Below, one piece after another: positions 6,370 to 33,149 of a stretch of DNA of 33,149 nucleotides. The notes under the pieces are model-generated. The model worked only from the letters and a program-made list of their open reading frames with translations. It was not told where the DNA came from and did not search any database. The position numbers and the translations under genes were made by a program. This stretch comes from an uncultured Alphaproteobacteria bacterium (GTDB lineage: Bacteria; Pseudomonadota; Alphaproteobacteria; CAAHEQ01; UBA3637): NCBI GenBank assembly GCA_947627155.1, contig CANQUX010000018.1, forward strand, positions 1 through 33,149, read 5' to 3'. How positions within the stretch are numbered: position 1 is the stretch's first letter; every line of letters begins with the position of its first letter.

Positions 6370-6420
6370 TTTTGAAAATAACAGAATTTTAATCAATTGT
6401 TTATGAGAAGGAGCGGGTTT

Positions 6421-7899
6421 ATGGGAATGAATTTTTCGGAAAAATCTCATTTGAAAAATCAAAAACGGTCTCATGAAAGTGGTATGGCTGTTAAAGAATT
6501 AGCCAGAGTTGTTGCTATTTGGACTGTTGTTATTTTGCTTGGATGGTTAGGCTATTCTTTTTTCACGACTTATCGTCATTGTGATAATGTGATTGATGAA
6601 TTAAAGTTTTTATCAAATGACTATTCCATTCACATGCAGCAGATGGCTCTTGTTCCGGAAGAAGGAACTGTTTTGGAAAAGGGAGCCGCTTTGAAAGACG
6701 GTTATTATTATACGGCAATGGGATATGAAGATCATTTTGTAATTGAAATTAAGGGATTGTCTGTTTCCGAATGTCGTAAATTAGCTGATTGGAATTGGCC
6801 GTTGCCTTATAAGATTGAGCCGAATATTTCGAACGGAAAGTGTGAAGCAATTTCTTTTTTATTTAAAAATAATTTATCTGTTCATGCTGATTCGGATGTT
6901 CAAGGGTGTACCGTCTTTGGCTCATGGAACGGCGAAAAATGTGTTTGTCAGGCGGGATATACCGGAAACAGATGTCAAAAATGTGATGTGGCTGCCGGTT
7001 TTGACAGTCAGGATGTAAACGGCAAGTGTTATATATCTTCAAAACGGGAATTTTGTACTGTTGATGCGTTTTGTAACGGGCATGCCTCTGCCGTTGAATT
7101 CAATCCCACATGCAGTTGCCAAAAGTGTGATATGGGATATTTCGGGGAGCATTGTGAACAGTTTGAACCGAGCGGTAATGTTTGTAACGGACACGGAAAA
7201 GATGTTTATTGGTATAATGCATCGGTACAAAGCAAAAAAGGCGGCGGTTGTGATTGTCGGGACGGTTTTTACGGTCGACGGTGTGAGTTAACGGATAAAA
7301 ATCAAGAATGTAACGGACATGGAGAAATATACGGCTACGGCTTTTGCGAATGTCAGGAAGGGTTTTCCGGAAAAGATTGTGAACAAGCCGTTTCTCTGCC
7401 ACCTTGCGGCACATCTCAATATGCTCCGCAAGGCCAACGCGTTTATTTGAACGGACAGAGTTTTTGTCTGTGTCATCAGGGGTATTACGGTGAAAATTGT
7501 TCTAATCAGTGCTTAAACAGTTGTAAATCGGGTTATCGGGTTTATAAAGGAAACGTTTGCGGGTGTGAATGTTATAACGGCTATTATGGAGATGATTGTT
7601 CCCAAAAATGCACTAATACATGCAAATATGGTTATGCCGTTTATAAAGACGGGGTCTGTGGGTGCGAATGTTACAGCGGGTATTATGGCGAAACATGTGA
7701 AATGAATTGCGCGAATCAAATTAACTGCATAAATGGCGGAAAGGCGGCTTATAAAGACGGAGCCTGTGTGTGTGAATGTCCGGAAAACGTGTTCGGTAAA
7801 GTATGCGAACATCGGTGTGCCGATGAAATAACTTGTCCGAAAGGTTCAATTGCTTTTTATGGCAACGGACAATGTCAGTGTTCTGATATTGTCAAGTAA
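6421..7899 (+). CDS. Pilin-like membrane-anchored protein with EGF-like repeats
   Basis: 492 residues. The start at 6421 is fixed by AAGGAG at 6408-6413 with 7 bases between. The N-terminus has a basic leader, then S-G|M-A-V-K-E-L (residues 20-27) and a hydrophobic helix to about residue 48. This fits a type IV prepilin peptidase site with Glu at +5. After a pilin-like domain (~50-160) come about eight EGF-like modules with the C-x-C-x(2-3)-G-[YF] pattern, beginning near residues 174, 231, 277, 309, 349, 380, 413 and 449 (e.g. CVCQAGYTGNRC, CECQEGFSGKDC). The last module is incomplete and the protein ends shortly after. Many disulfides are expected outside the cytoplasm. EGF modules are common in animal proteins and uncommon in bacteria, so a host-contact or adhesion role is inferred. 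It is related in design to 31168-32790. Confidence 0.8.
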   Translation: MGMNFSEKSHLKNQKRSHESGMAVKELARVVAIWTVVILLGWLGYSFFTTYRHCDNVIDELKFLSNDYSIHMQQMALVPEEGTVLEKGAALKDGYYYTAMGYEDHFVIEIKGLSVSECRKLADWNWPLPYKIEPNISNGKCEAISFLFKNNLSVHADSDVQGCTVFGSWNGEKCVCQAGYTGNRCQKCDVAAGFDSQDVNGKCYISSKREFCTVDAFCNGHASAVEFNPTCSCQKCDMGYFGEHCEQFEPSGNVCNGHGKDVYWYNASVQSKKGGGCDCRDGFYGRRCELTDKNQECNGHGEIYGYGFCECQEGFSGKDCEQAVSLPPCGTSQYAPQGQRVYLNGQSFCLCHQGYYGENCSNQCLNSCKSGYRVYKGNVCGCECYNGYYGDDCSQKCTNTCKYGYAVYKDGVCGCECYSGYYGETCEMNCANQINCINGGKAAYKDGACVCECPENVFGKVCEHRCADEITCPKGSIAFYGNGQCQCSDIVK

Positions 7900-9783: not shown

Positions 9784-10122
9784 ATGAAAGCTGTTCTGTT
9801 TTTAAAATTTTTGGTGTTCATTTTTTCAATTTTGTTATTGTTAGGTTTTACTTTTATCGCTTATAAAATAGCAGATACCCGTCAACAAAGCAAGATAAAA
9901 ACACAAGGAACGGCTGTTTCTTTGCCGATGGTTGAAAAAACAGATTTGCCGGACGGTGAAAAAGTGAGTCTTTCTGTTTTAATGCCCGATGAAGAAATCG
10001 TAACGGCGTTTGCCTGTTCGGAAGATGTTTGTCTGATAACGAAAAATGCCGAGAAGCAAAACCGTATTTTGGTTATTTATCCGCAAACGGGATATCTTAA
10101 AACCGTTATTCAACTCCGTTAA
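9784..10122 (+). CDS. Small single-pass membrane protein next to rluD
   Basis: 112 residues with one transmembrane segment (about residues 6-28). After it comes a short, probably periplasmic domain with two Cys in C-S-E-D-V-C (near residues 78-83), then a beta-rich end (R-I-L-V-I-Y-P-Q-T-G-Y). GAGGAAAAG precedes the ATG. Short membrane proteins divergent from an rluA-family gene occur in other Alphaproteobacteria (DUF6476-like); I suggest this assignment from layout and length, not from a clear motif. The function is unknown. Confidence 0.7.
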   Translation: MKAVLFLKFLVFIFSILLLLGFTFIAYKIADTRQQSKIKTQGTAVSLPMVEKTDLPDGEKVSLSVLMPDEEIVTAFACSEDVCLITKNAEKQNRILVIYPQTGYLKTVIQLR

Positions 10123-10203: not shown

Positions 10204-10269
10204 ATTAACGGAATTTTCATTTTTTTGAGCGACAATATACCGCATCAGAAATAATTGAAGGATTTTGTT

Positions 10270-12108
10270 TTGCAAAAAAAACTTGTCGAATATATTTTTG
10301 TTATTTTCGGCGCATTTCTTATAGCCGGTATCGGGTATTTTATACCATCGTTTCTCTATAAGGTTCCGTCAGCGGAAGAACAAAATAAATTTATTAATCA
10401 GTTTGTTGAAAAATCTTTACCCAAAGAAAATGTTTTAATTCAACCGTTATATGATGCTTACCTGGAACAAAAAATTAAAGATGTTCTCATTCCCTTTTTA
10501 GGAGAAGATGCCGTTCGAACGGTTGTGCGTGCCGAATTGGAAATTCAAAAAAAGAAAATTATTGAAGAAACCTCTGTTCCTTCGATGCAATCGCATGAAA
10601 CGCCCCAAAATGATTCGTTATTGTCGCAAACAATTCGCAAAACCGTTACCGATGTTATAAATTATGATGTAAAGCACATGAATGTGTTTGTTTTTTTGGC
10701 AAAATCAACTGATGAACAACGCAATCGTTTTTTTAACACGCACAGAACCGGATTGTTGCAAACCGCTCAAATGGTTGTCGGTTATCGTTCCGAACGAGGT
10801 GATACGTTTCAGGTTATTGATTTTCCCGAAACGTTGCCGTTTGCACCCGTTGCTTTACAAAGAAGACAATATCACCAAATGATTGCCGTTGCATTTATCA
10901 CAACGAGCGTGTTGATTCTTTTTCTGGTTGCGTTGTTTTGGTATATGGGCAAACGTCGTCAAAAACAAATAGATTTTTCGTTTCTGCAAGAAAAAGAAGC
11001 GGATAATATGTATCGCCGTCAAATTATCGGTTCACCCGATGAAAATTTATTGCTTCGGGTTCAAAATTTGTGTTCACAAATGCCGGAAGTTGCCGTCAAT
11101 GCATTAAGAAATCGGTTATATGATCATTCTTCCTTCAAACCCGGTCAGGACAGTGCTTTTTCACCGGCACAACAAGCGGCGGTGATTTTGTTGTGTTTGG
11201 GTGATAAAGGTGTTCGGCTTATGTTTAAGCAAATGAGCGAGGCGGAAATTAAAGCTTTTTCGCATATTATGGCAAAATTGGGTCGCGTGAAAGCTATGGA
11301 GATTCATCCGATTTTAATGCGCTTTTGCCGACAAATGATGCATCCGCAGGATATTGTGGCACCGCTTGAACAAACAAAAGCTTTACTGCGGGCAAATTTA
11401 ACGGATGAACGCGCGCAAACTTTAATTAAGGAATTGGATAAGCCCGCATTCGGTCATTCTGTTTGGAATAAGCTGAATAAGGCGGCAGACAGTCAAATCA
11501 GCGCATTTTTGGCGCATGAATATCCGCAAACATCTGCCGAGATACTGTATCATTTGTCGGCGGAAAAAGCGGCGCGTGTTTTAAAAGCTTTTTCAATTCG
11601 ATTGGCTGCCGAAATTTTATTACGTATCAGTTCGTTTGATGAAGAGTGTTTTAAAACGAGAGTTTTTTCTTTTATTTCTGAGGAGGAAAAATCAAATTCG
11701 GTTTCTGCCGGTGAAACAAAAGCGGCAGCTGTTTTAAGTTTAACGGAAGCGGTTCGGCGGAAAAAGATATTGGAATATATTTCCAAAACGTTTCCGCAGG
11801 CTGCTTATATGCTCTCAAAACGACTGATCACGTTTGATGATTTTGCATTTTGGAGTGAAGATGATTTAAAATATCTTTTAAAACAAACGGATGAAGAAAC
11901 TTTGATTGTTGCTTTAAGTCATGTGTCAGATAATGTTAAAGAGGCATTTGTTCGGGTTATTGATCCGAAAAAATGGGTTGTTATTTTGCAAAAAACCAAA
12001 CAGACGCCGATTGAGAGTATTCAAAAAATAGAAGAGGCACAGGCTCGAATGATTCAACAGGCACAATTGTTAATTGATTCGCAAAAATGTAAAGGAAAAA
12101 TTTTATGA
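10270..12108 (+). CDS. fliF-fliG: FliF-FliG fusion with a reduced FliF periplasmic region
   Basis: 612 residues. I choose the TTG at 10270 because AAGGA (10258-10262) lies 7 bases before it; an in-frame TTG at 10255 has no ribosome site. Residues ~1-283 are FliF-like: a first membrane segment (5-28), only ~170 periplasmic residues, a second segment (~203-225) and the cytoplasmic tail V-Q-N-L-C-S-Q-M-P-E-V-A that in normal FliF binds FliG. The periplasmic part holds the last ring-building motif region (I-K-D-V-L-I-P-F-L-G-E-D-A-V-R and E-R-G-D-T-F-Q-V-I-D-F), while the first two are missing (normal FliF is ~550 residues). Residues ~296-612 are FliG: F-S-P-A-Q-Q-A-A-V-I-L-L, the H-E-Y-P-Q-T-S variant of EHPQT, and a C-terminal motor domain. 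MS-ring and C-ring base are thus one chain. It overlaps flhF by ATGA. Confidence 0.88.
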   Translation: MQKKLVEYIFVIFGAFLIAGIGYFIPSFLYKVPSAEEQNKFINQFVEKSLPKENVLIQPLYDAYLEQKIKDVLIPFLGEDAVRTVVRAELEIQKKKIIEETSVPSMQSHETPQNDSLLSQTIRKTVTDVINYDVKHMNVFVFLAKSTDEQRNRFFNTHRTGLLQTAQMVVGYRSERGDTFQVIDFPETLPFAPVALQRRQYHQMIAVAFITTSVLILFLVALFWYMGKRRQKQIDFSFLQEKEADNMYRRQIIGSPDENLLLRVQNLCSQMPEVAVNALRNRLYDHSSFKPGQDSAFSPAQQAAVILLCLGDKGVRLMFKQMSEAEIKAFSHIMAKLGRVKAMEIHPILMRFCRQMMHPQDIVAPLEQTKALLRANLTDERAQTLIKELDKPAFGHSVWNKLNKAADSQISAFLAHEYPQTSAEILYHLSAEKAARVLKAFSIRLAAEILLRISSFDEECFKTRVFSFISEEEKSNSVSAGETKAAAVLSLTEAVRRKKILEYISKTFPQAAYMLSKRLITFDDFAFWSEDDLKYLLKQTDEETLIVALSHVSDNVKEAFVRVIDPKKWVVILQKTKQTPIESIQKIEEAQARMIQQAQLLIDSQKCKGKIL

Positions 12109-13064
12109 AGCTGAAAACTTTTTCTGCCGACAGTATTCCCGAAGCCATGAACGCCGTTAAGCAAACATTCGGCGAAAATGCCGTGATTATTTCTTCCGGT
12201 CGTTTGCCGAATCATACCGTTCGATTGGTGGTTGCAATTGAAGAGAATGATTCGAATCAAGAAGAGGCGGACAAAGAAATGCGCAACCGTCGATTGGTTT
12301 ATTTTAAAAATTTATTGGCACCGCATCATGTGTTTGATTCCTATTATGAACGCCTGTTAAATGCGTTATCCCGCAAAAGTGCCAAGTTAACCGAAGAAAA
12401 ATGGTTGGTGGCAGCCTTGGAAGAAATGTATGTTTATAAATCAATTGCGCCGCTTAAAAAAAATAATGTTTCGGTGTTTTTAGGGCCTGCCGGCAGCGGT
12501 AAAACAACGGCGGTTGCCAAGGCGGCATTTCAAGCAAAAGCAAATCGTTTAAAAGTGGCTTGCGTGACGCTTGATCGGCAAAAAGTTTGCGGTGCGGCCG
12601 AATTGGAACGATTTGCCGGGTGGATGAATATTCCCTGCACTTGTTTAAATGAAATATCGAAACTCAATGAAACCGTAACGGTTTTGCGGTTGTCGCATGA
12701 TGTGATTTTAATTGATACGCCGGCTTATAATCCCTATAATTCCACGGATTTGGAGCAAATTCGTGAAATTAAAACACAACTATCCGATGCGGAAATGATT
12801 TATACGCAGCAAGCCGGACTGGATTGCAAAGAAGCCGAAACGCAAGGTGCCTTATTTGCCAAAGCCGGTTGTACGGTTTTGCTGGGAACAAAATTAGATA
12901 TGGCGCGGTCTGTCGGCGGATTGTTGCAAACGGCGCTTTTCGGCTCTTATCAATGGGGCGGATGGAGTAAAAGCAATAAAATCACGGATTATCTGTTGGA
13001 AGCCGGCAGCGGAACGTTGAATAACATTATTCGGGGAATGCTTTATAAACGAGAGGATGACTAA
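12105..13064 (+). CDS. flhF: FlhF, SRP-type GTPase for polar flagellar placement
   Basis: 319 residues, a short member of the family. The FlhF N-terminus is present (M-K-L-K-T-F-S-A-D-S-I-P-E-A-M, then G-E-N-A-V-I-I-S-S). The G-domain has G1 GPAGSGKTT (127-135), the L-D-R-Q-K-V loop, G4 T-K-L-D and a G-G-L-L-Q closing motif. The G3 motif reads D-T-P-A-Y-N where the alphaproteobacterial form is usually D-T-P-G-x-N, so the Gly that senses the gamma phosphate is Ala. FlhF recruits FliF to the pole in flagellated bacteria. Its start overlaps the fliF-fliG stop and flhG follows with no gap, so the three are one operon. Confidence 0.9.
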   Translation: MKLKTFSADSIPEAMNAVKQTFGENAVIISSGRLPNHTVRLVVAIEENDSNQEEADKEMRNRRLVYFKNLLAPHHVFDSYYERLLNALSRKSAKLTEEKWLVAALEEMYVYKSIAPLKKNNVSVFLGPAGSGKTTAVAKAAFQAKANRLKVACVTLDRQKVCGAAELERFAGWMNIPCTCLNEISKLNETVTVLRLSHDVILIDTPAYNPYNSTDLEQIREIKTQLSDAEMIYTQQAGLDCKEAETQGALFAKAGCTVLLGTKLDMARSVGGLLQTALFGSYQWGGWSKSNKITDYLLEAGSGTLNNIIRGMLYKREDD

Positions 13065-13847
13065 ATGACACAACAAAATATTTCCGATATTTATGAGCGG
13101 TTAGACGGACAAAATATTATTGCCGTTGCTTCCGGAAAAGGCGGAGTCGGCAAAACATTTTTATCCGTAACACTGGCGCATGCTTTTGCGACAAGCGGTG
13201 AAAAAGTATTGTTGGTTGACGGTGATTTAGGTTTGCCTAATATTGATATTCAGCTCGGCTTGAACACTTCTTGTGATATAGGGCAGGTGTTAACGGGAAA
13301 AATGCCGATGAATCAAGCCATTTCTCATGTTTCTGCCATTGAGTGTGATGTTTTGGCAGGCCATTCGGGTTTAATTGCGACAACATCATTGAGTGACGGG
13401 CAATTACAATTATTGCGCGATGATTTGCGCATATTGGCGCAACATTATGATCGCGTGTTTTTGGATTTGGGAACGGGTATTGAAAAAACAATCACTCTTT
13501 TAGGCAGTTCGGCCGGTACGGTGTTAATTGTTTGTACGGAGGATCCGACCTCTTTGGCTGATGCTTATACGTTGGTGAAATATTTATCAAATCAATCAAC
13601 ACCGCCACGGTTTCGGGTTGTGGTCAATATGGCCAATACGCAAAAAGAGGGTGAACGAACATATCAAACCCTTTTAAAAGCCTGTCAAAACTTTTTAAAT
13701 GCCGAGTTGGAATTGGGAGGAATTATTCATCAGGAATCGCATATTAAAGAGTGTGTGCGGCAACAGGTTCCGTTTTTAACAACTTATCCGGATTCGCCGG
13801 TCGTTCAGGACATAGAAGCTTTGGTGTCATATTTAAAAAATCGGTAA
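13065..13847 (+). CDS. flhG: FlhG (FleN/MinD-like) ATPase
   Basis: 260 residues. A deviant Walker A, S-G-K-G-G-V-G-K-T, lies near residues 25-33. V-D-G-D-L-G-L-P-N-I-D (near 50-60) and the hydrophobic-D-L-G-T-G switch match the FlhG/MinD family. FlhG controls flagellar number with FlhF. The N-terminal D-Q-A-x-x-L-R helix that stimulates FlhF in other species is not evident; the N-terminus here is I-S-D-I-Y-E-R-L-D. ATG directly follows the flhF stop. The last codons overlap a hairpin. Confidence 0.9.
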   Translation: MTQQNISDIYERLDGQNIIAVASGKGGVGKTFLSVTLAHAFATSGEKVLLVDGDLGLPNIDIQLGLNTSCDIGQVLTGKMPMNQAISHVSAIECDVLAGHSGLIATTSLSDGQLQLLRDDLRILAQHYDRVFLDLGTGIEKTITLLGSSAGTVLIVCTEDPTSLADAYTLVKYLSNQSTPPRFRVVVNMANTQKEGERTYQTLLKACQNFLNAELELGGIIHQESHIKECVRQQVPFLTTYPDSPVVQDIEALVSYLKNR

Positions 13848-31167: not shown

Positions 31168-32790
31168 TTATTCACGACATAATGCCCGATCAACTTCTCT
31201 TGTACTATATCTTAACAGAACTAAATCGCGAGCGCCATTAGATAATTCTATACCTCTGTATCGATCGGCTTCGCGAAACCAAAGCCATCTGCCATCCGTA
31301 TAATTTTCATCATTATCAAACATTTTTCTGAATTGTTTAATTGATGACGGAACATTATTAATGGCGGGATTTGCATCTGTTTCCGTGCAGTAATACTTTC
31401 CGTTGCTGGCAGGTTTTTCATTATTACATTGCCAATCAATATCATGATAAGCAGCCATAAAAGAGGGGCCGTCTGCCGTTCCGACACAGCCTTCATCGCT
31501 TTTTTTGGCGTGCGCTGCACAGAACCGACAGCTTGTCCACCAATTCATCATTTTATTGGAACCGTAAAAATCTTTGCCTTGTATATTTGTCGGCTCTTTT
31601 TTCAATAAATCATCGGAAACTTTATGACATTCACCCGAATAATTTTCTCCGTTCGGATCATCATCTTGCCATTCTGATGTAGGGGAAGCACCGGCTGCTA
31701 AATAGCAATATTTTTCAAATCCGCCGTCGGGATTACAATCTTCATTGGTGCGGCATTCATAAGCAACACACCCTTGTGCCGATTTTTTCCAACTTTCGCC
31801 CTCGGGACATGGTTCACATTTGCCTTCTGTGGTATTACAAATCGGATTTTCCGTGCCTTTCGCCAAACAATCTTCATCTGCCATGCATTCCACACAAATA
31901 TGTTCATCGGTTTTGCATATGGGTGTATCGAAAGTGTCTGCACAATCAGTATCTGTCATACAATCAACACAAGCCGTGCCGCTCCATATTTTTCCTTCCG
32001 GACAGCTGATACATTCGTTATTTTCGCAGTGTTGCGTATTGCTTTCGCAATCTAAATCATCCAAACATTCCACGCATCTTTCGTTCTCGCAAAAGGGTTT
32101 TTCATCAGGACAATCGTCATCTTTGGCGCACCAGCCTTTTGGGCGCCCCGAATCATAATTACCGTTCACTTCTTCCGCATCGAATTCAATATAAATTTCA
32201 TTATTTTCATCACTTGAACATAAATCATCTTCTGTGTAGGAAATACCATTGATATCCATTTCCCAACGGCCGTCCATGGCGCTGACAAGTGTTGTGAGCG
32301 GTTTACAAACTCCCTTTGAAATGTTTCCAACCTTAATATAATAAGCATCTGTTTCGCGACAGTTATAAAATTCTGCTTTGTCTTTGCGGATACAATCATA
32401 ATCAACGGGATAACGATCATATTGTGTTGATAAATGCCCGCTGTAATGTTCATCTTCAGGTGTTTCATCATAAGGGTCACCCAATATCAATTCTTCGTTT
32501 CCCAAAGCATATTTTACCTTTAAATCGTTACGCATGAGATTGATTTCATTTGCTATTTGGTCAGCTTGATAGTAATTCATGGCTAATTTATAGCCCACGA
32601 TTCCACCGATTGACAGAACAGCAATAATGGCCAGCACGCCGAGCATTTCAACCATTGATCGCCCGCTTTGCGAGTGTGTTTTGATTCTATTTTGCTTTTC
32701 TTCTTCCCCGCTCACGATTTGCGGTTCATTGCTTTGCATATATTCTGTTTGAGATTGATTTTTAAATTGTTTTTTGAACTGTCTTGTCAT
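31168..32790 (-). CDS. Type IV pilin-like, cysteine-rich surface protein
   Basis: 540 residues. An upstream in-frame ATG at 32883 exists, but AAGGGAG before 32790 and the promoter at 32818-32846 favour the start at 32790. The N-terminus is a long, polar leader (1-43) ending S-Q-S-G|R-S-M-V-E-M-L-G, with Glu at +5 and a hydrophobic helix (~46-70): a type IV prepilin peptidase site. Residues ~205-345 are Cys repeats with the pattern C-V-E-C-x-x-D-x-D-C (C-V-E-C-L-D-D-L-D-C, C-V-D-C-M-T-D-T-D-C, C-V-E-C-M-A-D-E-D-C), likely disulfide-bonded and possibly Ca2+ binding. The C-terminal module (W-W-T-S-C-R-F-C-A-A-H-A onward) is shared with the partial gene at 2-589. Long leaders are unusual for pilins. 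It is a candidate minor pilin, adhesin or pseudopilin-anchored protein. Confidence 0.85.
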   Translation of the reverse strand: MTRQFKKQFKNQSQTEYMQSNEPQIVSGEEEKQNRIKTHSQSGRSMVEMLGVLAIIAVLSIGGIVGYKLAMNYYQADQIANEINLMRNDLKVKYALGNEELILGDPYDETPEDEHYSGHLSTQYDRYPVDYDCIRKDKAEFYNCRETDAYYIKVGNISKGVCKPLTTLVSAMDGRWEMDINGISYTEDDLCSSDENNEIYIEFDAEEVNGNYDSGRPKGWCAKDDDCPDEKPFCENERCVECLDDLDCESNTQHCENNECISCPEGKIWSGTACVDCMTDTDCADTFDTPICKTDEHICVECMADEDCLAKGTENPICNTTEGKCEPCPEGESWKKSAQGCVAYECRTNEDCNPDGGFEKYCYLAAGASPTSEWQDDDPNGENYSGECHKVSDDLLKKEPTNIQGKDFYGSNKMMNWWTSCRFCAAHAKKSDEGCVGTADGPSFMAAYHDIDWQCNNEKPASNGKYYCTETDANPAINNVPSSIKQFRKMFDNDENYTDGRWLWFREADRYRGIELSNGARDLVLLRYSTREVDRALCRE

Positions 32791-32817
32791 TTTCCGACTC
32801 CCTTTCAGTATACGAAT

Positions 32818-32846
32818 AGCATAAATTAAACGTACCTTTAATGCAA
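32818..32846 (-). promoter_or_regulatory. Promoter of the pilin-like gene
   Basis: On the minus strand, TTGCAT (32841-32846), 17 bases, TATGCT (32818-32823), 27 bases from the start codon. The spacer holds GTACGTTTAATT, repeated at 32976-32987. Confidence 0.55.
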
Positions 32847-32857
32847 CGCAGATTCCG

Positions 32858-32872
32858 GGGTAAAATTTACCC
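32858..32872. promoter_or_regulatory. Palindrome upstream of the pilin promoter
   Basis: GGGTAAA-A-TTTACCC, a perfect 7-bp dyad around one base. It lies 11 bases upstream of the -35 box, a likely activator or regulator site. No regulator is encoded in the window. Confidence 0.45.
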
Positions 32873-33149
32873 TCAAAAGACAAAAAATCCCCACTAAAAA
32901 ACAGTCACAAAATCAATGGATTCCGGCCAAAATAAATTTTTTTTGAAAAAATCAAAAAAAAGTGTTGCAAAAATCGTACGTTTAATTGGGGAAAGAGAAA
33001 CAGGAAAAAACCGTTTTTTTTAATCTATGCGATTGCTCTGTTGAATTTATCTTATGTTTGAATACATATGTTTTATTTTTTCAATTTTTTATTTGTTTTC
33101 AAAAGGTAATTTAACTTTTTATCTGCTCAATTTAATAGAACGTTTTTGT
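32873..33149. other. AT-rich end of window with a second 23-bp element
   Basis: No gene is seen. At 32965-32987 TTGCA(6 bases)GTACGTTTAATT matches 19 of 23 positions of 32824-32846 on the other strand. A divergent gene probably starts to the right of the window. The remainder is runs of A and T. Confidence 0.6.

Follow-up and report, generated by a model that had tools for sequence, protein, structure and literature searches.

The fliFG locus

The window analysed here is a 33-kb contig (33,149 nucleotides) from the 1.56-Mb genome, 96% complete, of an uncultured alphaproteobacterium. It carries the gene order rluD, a DUF6476 gene, fliFG, flhF, flhG and secA. The fliFG frame is open over 612 codons from a TTG start and runs in the order TM1, ring-building motif 3 (RBM3), TM2, FliG-binding tail and the N, M and C domains of FliG (Table 1). 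The same order of neighbours is conserved across the family as rluD-fliF-fliG-(fliN-motA)-flhF-flhG-secA. NCBIfam and Pfam assigned the two genes after fliFG to FlhF and FlhG, in part with scores under the curated cut-offs. The best solved-structure matches of the FlhF profile were the FlhF structures 2px0 and 8r9r, and the window protein joins an SRP-type NG GTPase to a conserved N-terminus, the putative FliG-interaction domain, as expected for FlhF.

Table 1. Positions of the features of the fliFG locus in the window and of the related gene set in sister genera.
Feature	Position	Strand	Evidence and remarks
DUF6476 gene, upstream of fliFG	9784-10122	+	conserved neighbour in most fused genera
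Ribosome-binding site GAAGGA	10257-10262	+	sequence; spacing of 7 nt to the TTG start (10270)
fliFG, shortened FliF naturally fused to FliG, 612 aa	10270-12108	+	Pfam/NCBIfam, HMMs, structure alignment, family profile
TM1, residues 9-27	10294-10350	+	hydropathy; long helix 2-28 in the AF2 model
FliF RBM3, residues 52-188, with shortened low-confidence collar loop	10423-10833	+	alignment to 6sd1/6scn/8wjr, Z about 10
TM2, residues 205-223	10882-10938	+	hydropathy; helix 196-231 in the AF2 model
FliG-binding tail of FliF, PEVAVNALRNRLY, residues 260-284	11047-11121	+	aligns to the C-terminal end of full-length FliF (model positions 513-538)
FliG N, M and C domains, residues 296-609	11155-12096	+	Pfam, structure alignment, residue check; torque charges lost
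flhF, SRP-type GTPase	12105-13064	+	ATG overlaps the fliFG stop; TIGR03499 118 bits against a 174-bit cut-off; family alignment
flhG, ATPase of MinD type, Walker A (GKGGVGKT) intact	13065-13847	+	closest solved structures FleN/FlhG; alignment
Rotor and stator gene set without FlhA/FliP	L044, L046-L049, L051, L052, L055 with L076-L083		genera g5, g8 and g9

The original prediction of a natural FliF-FliG fusion was borne out, as full or near-full fusions occur in at least 16 genomes belonging to five genera. The best-matching records are from uncultured Alphaproteobacteria of rabbit and ruminant guts, which may belong to GTDB order RF32, and the fusion was also found in independently assembled genomes from both sources, which excludes an assembly or frame error joining two genes. 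A six-member alignment of the fusion, compared with the genome contigs, corresponded to five loci. FliG_C and the fusion profile each matched once in the window genome, which therefore gave no separate FliF or FliG; a second full-length fliF or fliG was thus discounted, and no fliM, fliN or flhA was found there either. A 925-aa open frame in genome G057 was considered as a full-length natural FliF-FliG fusion and rejected, fliF and fliG having separate stops in that genome.

The FliF portion: RBM3 without RBM1 and RBM2

Two membrane segments separated by about 170 periplasmic residues had been predicted, and hydropathy placed them at residues 9-27 and 205-223 with a span of ~177 residues between them. 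The Pfam model YscJ_FliF_C scored 21.4 bits in the window protein, just below its cut-off of 23.8, whereas five relatives scored 59-76 bits. With an HMM built from five full-length alphaproteobacterial FliFs the window protein was again among the weakest matches (E 0.005). The short FliFs and the fusions aligned to this model at positions 215-285, 320-410 and 510-538, with a gap at the collar insert, and gave no significant match to RBM1 and RBM2 at positions 60-210. When a family profile of 16 fusions was compared with solved structures it matched Salmonella FliF over residues 228-510 only (E 3.6e-24), FliG over its whole length and the engineered Vibrio FliF-FliG chain with E 1.6e-67.

The AF2 monomer model was of modest confidence (pLDDT 63, pTM 0.27) and was made with only six sequences in the input. 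Residues 52-188 were predicted to fold as helix-strand-strand-helix-strand, as ring-building motifs do, and superposed on RBM3 of solved S-rings (Salmonella 231-438) with a Z of about 10. An RGD motif at 181-183 (numbered from 10255) is nearly invariant in the RBM3 region. The window chain thus has RBM3 between two membrane segments and a C-terminal FliG-binding helix that aligns with the tail of full-length FliF, and the claim that RBM3 and the tail were kept while RBM1 and RBM2 were lost agrees with the five-FliF HMM, the family profile and the AF2 alignment alike. Judged from these comparisons, the FliF part is genuine but diverged, and on its own it is a weak FliF match.

A smaller ring had been expected from so short a chain. 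However, in solved structures from Salmonella and Vibrio the 33-35-fold S-ring is built of RBM3 alone, so a hollow ring of undiminished diameter would be expected, the part lost being the inner rings of RBM1 and RBM2. These two motifs surround the export gate in the MS ring, and for that reason their loss along with the export gate makes sense. The fusion does fix the C-ring stoichiometry at 1:1, as foreseen; since native FliF and FliG already occur at about 1:1, this is less special than first implied.

The FliG portion and the question of rotation

The FliG part was described at the outset as complete, and this is so in terms of domains: FliG_N, FliG_M and FliG_C all exceeded their Pfam cut-offs, and AF2 residues 296-609 superposed on solved FliG with a Z of about 15. 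NCBIfam and Pfam matches put FliG at residues 300-610. It is not so for the torque residues, which read S K Q K S in place of K264, R281, D288, D289 and R297 (E. coli numbering), four of the five charges being replaced. Searches of the window genome for FliM/FliN and for the MotB plug found no match. Together with the lost charges these absences argue strongly against rotation in the window genome and against fliFG as a working rotor, and the suggestion that it forms a minimal rotor base there was dropped.

Among family members the torque charges were kept by all eight that have stator genes and by none of the 17 that lack them (Fisher p 9e-7, kinship ignored). Genome G015, which lies within the unfused clade, represents a separate co-loss of torque charges and stator. 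The survival of these charges only in genomes that keep stator genes amounts to a natural experiment on the role of the residues concerned.

Flagellar genes across the family

Family genomes are small (0.7-1.8 Mb), and most of the 43 keep FliF and FliG. FlhA and FliP were found in none of them, the window genome included, although positive controls were matched, in keeping with the non-flagellar role that had been proposed as an alternative. Rod and hook proteins (Flg_bb_rod) gave no match in the window genome and a single stray 137-aa match (genome G014) in the family as a whole. FliF and FliG are separate genes in nine genomes (g5, g7, g8 and g9), where FliF already lacks RBM1 and RBM2; the loss of these motifs therefore preceded the fusion.

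Genera g5, g8 and g9 have the operon fliF-fliG-fliN-motA-flhF-flhG and a second cluster encoding FliL, FliM, DUF6468, a MotE-like protein, two MotB-like proteins and a large periplasmic protein. One of the MotB-like proteins has the proton-binding Asp and the other an OmpA-like domain. The second cluster resembles the stator set fliL-pflI-motE-motA-motK of the Cereibacter Fla2 system (PMC10954123). It adjoins a DUF4167 gene in other genera; the DUF4167 gene of the window genome lacks flagellar neighbours, and in g3 the cluster is missing from between DUF4167 and acpS. MotA of the sister genera has H or Y for E. coli R90 and Q for E98 yet retains the two key prolines, and the Asp of MotB is also conserved, so that torque generation is plausible and the motor may work. 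The idea of a rotor base fits these genera, whose genes may specify a flagellar motor without a flagellum, and they make it testable whether such a motor can drive a non-flagellar load.

Phylogeny, stepwise loss and selection

In a tree of RluD and SecA, with a midpoint root only, all fused genera (g1, g2, g3, g11 and g13) fell on one side with 100% bootstrap, consistent with a single fusion event in the ancestor of the five. Further losses differ between lineages. Genus g13 keeps FliN together with a degenerate FliM, and g2 keeps fliFG without flhF. Genus g3 has no FlhF, and its FlhG lacks Walker A. FliG_N, which binds FliF, is gone from some g3 members, in a chain where FliG is covalently held. 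The shortest fusions, of 365-420 aa, are at the g3 loci L063, L062, L059 and L060, the neighbouring FlhG-like protein lacking Walker A; FliG_N gave no match in the two that were scanned (L062 and L063). Within the genus of the window, fliFG has been cleanly lost from G003 and G005, which keep flhF and flhG, and RBM3 has been lost from G002, in which RBM3 ring formation therefore cannot be required. FliG M and C are missing from G021, and g4, g6, g10 and g12 gave no match to fliFG. The family thus shows what can persist of a flagellar base once the flagellum is gone. The order of loss suggested is that the export gate, RBM1 and RBM2 went before the deepest family split sampled and the stator and FliM/FliN went later, while the FliF-FliG core and FlhF/FlhG often lasted longest.

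The dN/dS of fliFG was 0.06-0.24, against 0.04-0.12 for flhF and flhG, 0.03-0.13 for most neighbours and 0.32 for the DUF6476 gene. The fusion is thus under purifying selection, more weakly constrained than secA or flhG. Its FliF part is changing rapidly (identity to G007 62%, compared with 86-88% in neighbouring genes), and the frames are intact across the five genera with very little damage. A genome of another alphaproteobacterial family, G291, has an independent RBM3-only FliF-FliG fusion of 651 aa (L127:5210-7165) with a degenerate FlhG-like gene nearby, and another member of that family has full-length FliF. That a fusion of the same make-up arose twice argues that the architecture is useful.

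Proposed role

The window genome keeps the components of the first step of polar assembly, with FliF and FliG made inseparable, and this favours a placed, non-rotating oligomer. It is accordingly proposed, at about an even chance of being right, that fliFG is the remnant of a flagellar motor base and now a non-rotary, ring-forming membrane scaffold, probably polar and placed by FlhF and FlhG. The flagellum would have been lost first, the loss of the export gate making RBM1 and RBM2 around it dispensable. Before it joined FliG, FliF would have been trimmed to TM1-RBM3-TM2-tail, and the fusion with fliG would have followed in the ancestor of the five genera, FliM/FliN and the stator being lost. 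The product would oligomerise in the inner membrane, probably into an RBM3 ring resembling the S-ring, from which FliG projects into the cell, and FlhF and FlhG would set the place and amount of its assembly. The helical-repeat surface of FliG would then offer a docking scaffold, most likely at the pole, for a client. In other bacteria FlhF binds FliG-MC (Shewanella, PMC11236974). Ring formation, polar position and scaffold role are what we infer, whereas the sequences themselves show the domain content, the fusion, the operon, the missing FlhA/FliP, FliM/FliN and MotB, purifying selection and the loss of torque charges along with the stator. The RBM3 and FliG folds, the absence of FlhA and FliP from all 43 genomes, the conserved operon order, the single-fusion tree, the low dN/dS, the start of flhF inside the fliFG stop, the loss of FliG_N in g3 and the G291 fusion speak for this reading. 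Against a scaffold stand the separability of fliFG and flhFG (flhFG only in G003 and G005, fliFG without flhF in g2), the loss of RBM3 in G002 and of FliG M and C in G021, and the fast evolution of the FliF part.

A fuller history can be offered tentatively and with some doubt, namely that the family inherited a flagellum-less rotary motor for a non-flagellar load and that the fusion of the window later gave up rotation while keeping a placed pole scaffold. Such a motor might have comprised a hollow RBM3-only S-ring, FliG/FliM/FliN, MotA, a split MotB, FliL, the MotE-like protein and the large periplasmic protein, placed by FlhF and FlhG; one chain of the split MotB would supply the channel part and the other the part that binds peptidoglycan.

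The main rival to a scaffold is slow decay, since different lineages have lost different single domains. On this explanation nothing essential has depended on the motor since the loss of the flagellum, its parts have been dropped at differing rates, and the window represents a late stage with weak residual function. The small genomes fit, as does the fact that FliM/FliN, MotA/MotB, FlhF, the Walker A of FlhG and FliG_N (both in g3), FliG M and C, RBM3 and the whole of fliFG have each gone somewhere. A neutral relic, however, would not remain open over such divergence, and the open frames of five genera, their low dN/dS and the independent fusion in G291 make decay rather unlikely.

A second rival, a division or cell-cycle placement factor in which FliFG, FlhF and FlhG protect the poles from division, draws on Campylobacter, where flhF, flhG, fliF, fliM and fliN mutants make minicells and there is no Min system (PMC3228812). 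MinC is likewise absent from all 43 family genomes. However, 42 of the 43, that of the window among them, have MipZ, which usually serves as the placement ATPase in Alphaproteobacteria, so a Campylobacter-like division role is not required, and the case for a Min-like division factor as the main reading is weakened. A Campylobacter fliG mutant has little phenotype, family members without fliFG or flhFG exist, and such a role is thus improbable. It is more doubtful still that the fliFG ring serves a different envelope machine, for secretion or transport, as its base in the inner membrane and is not a placement scaffold. RBM3 resembles SpoIIIAG and RBM rings also occur in injectisomes and sporulation channels (PMC4768692), and SpoIIIAG (5wc3) was weakly matched, but no secretion genes adjoin fliFG in any genome seen and FlhA and FliP are absent. 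The still-turning rotor of a small rotary machine is extremely unlikely in the window genome, for although artificial full-length FliF-FliG fusions assemble and rotate in Salmonella (PMC4768692) and sister genera retain stator genes, the missing FliM/FliN and MotB-plug matches, the replaced torque residues and their pattern across stator-less relatives all speak against it.

Comparison with known systems

Natural fusion of FliF to FliG is already known from the Chlamydiaceae, with a different choice of domains. There too a shortened FliF with two membrane segments is joined to FliG in bacteria without flagella (Bergeron 2016, PMC4768692). The Chlamydia protein, however, has about 330 aa, with an RBM2-like and an unassigned RBM-like region and FliG_M only, and occurs with FlhA and an injectisome (PMC4768692). 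The window chain has RBM3 and all three FliG domains, is accompanied by FlhF and FlhG, and no export gate was found with it; a Chlamydiaceae-type fusion was therefore rejected as its class. Engineered FliF-FliG chains of Salmonella and Vibrio share the covalent 1:1 arrangement and, in the Vibrio work, were used for the solved 34- and 35-fold S-rings (PMC11481574; PDB 8z4d/8z4g), but are man-made, with a full-length FliF and a working flagellum. A simple natural test of what determines S-ring size, and of ring placement by FlhF alone, is offered by the RBM3-only chain fused to FliG.

The Shewanella polar initiation complex, in which FlhF binds FliG-MC, FliG holds FliF and FlhG regulates (PMC11236974), resembles the gene set of the window; there a flagellum follows, whereas here FliF is trimmed and none does. 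Flagellar basal bodies of Buchnera (PMC8109811) likewise combine a partial flagellar gene set with a small genome and lack of motility, but with the opposite outcome: export gate, rod and rings are kept and motA/motB lost, while the family of the window lacks export gate and rod and keeps the motor base. In Campylobacter the MS ring, FlhF and FlhG act outside motility, as proposed here, although with a complete flagellum, no Min system and the involvement of FliM/FliN (PMC3228812). No description of an RBM3-only FliF, an RBM3-only FliF-FliG fusion or rotor and stator genes without an export gate was found in the open-licence literature.

Other genes of the window

The ATP synthase alpha subunit at 658-2565 (635 aa) carries at its N-terminus a fused C-terminal portion of the delta (OSCP) subunit; the ORF upstream of it (29-589) gave no Pfam match. 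A 500-aa protein at 6397-7899 has one membrane segment near its N-terminus and a C-terminal, sub-cut-off Pfam match to teneurin-like EGF, unusual in a bacterium. On the minus strand at 31168-32883 an ORF with a prepilin-like N-terminus (GRSMVEMLGVLAIIAVLSIGG) has a long C-terminus, and similar ORFs with long, unrelated C-termini are scattered through the family (L036, L037, L039, L059, L062, L117 and L118).
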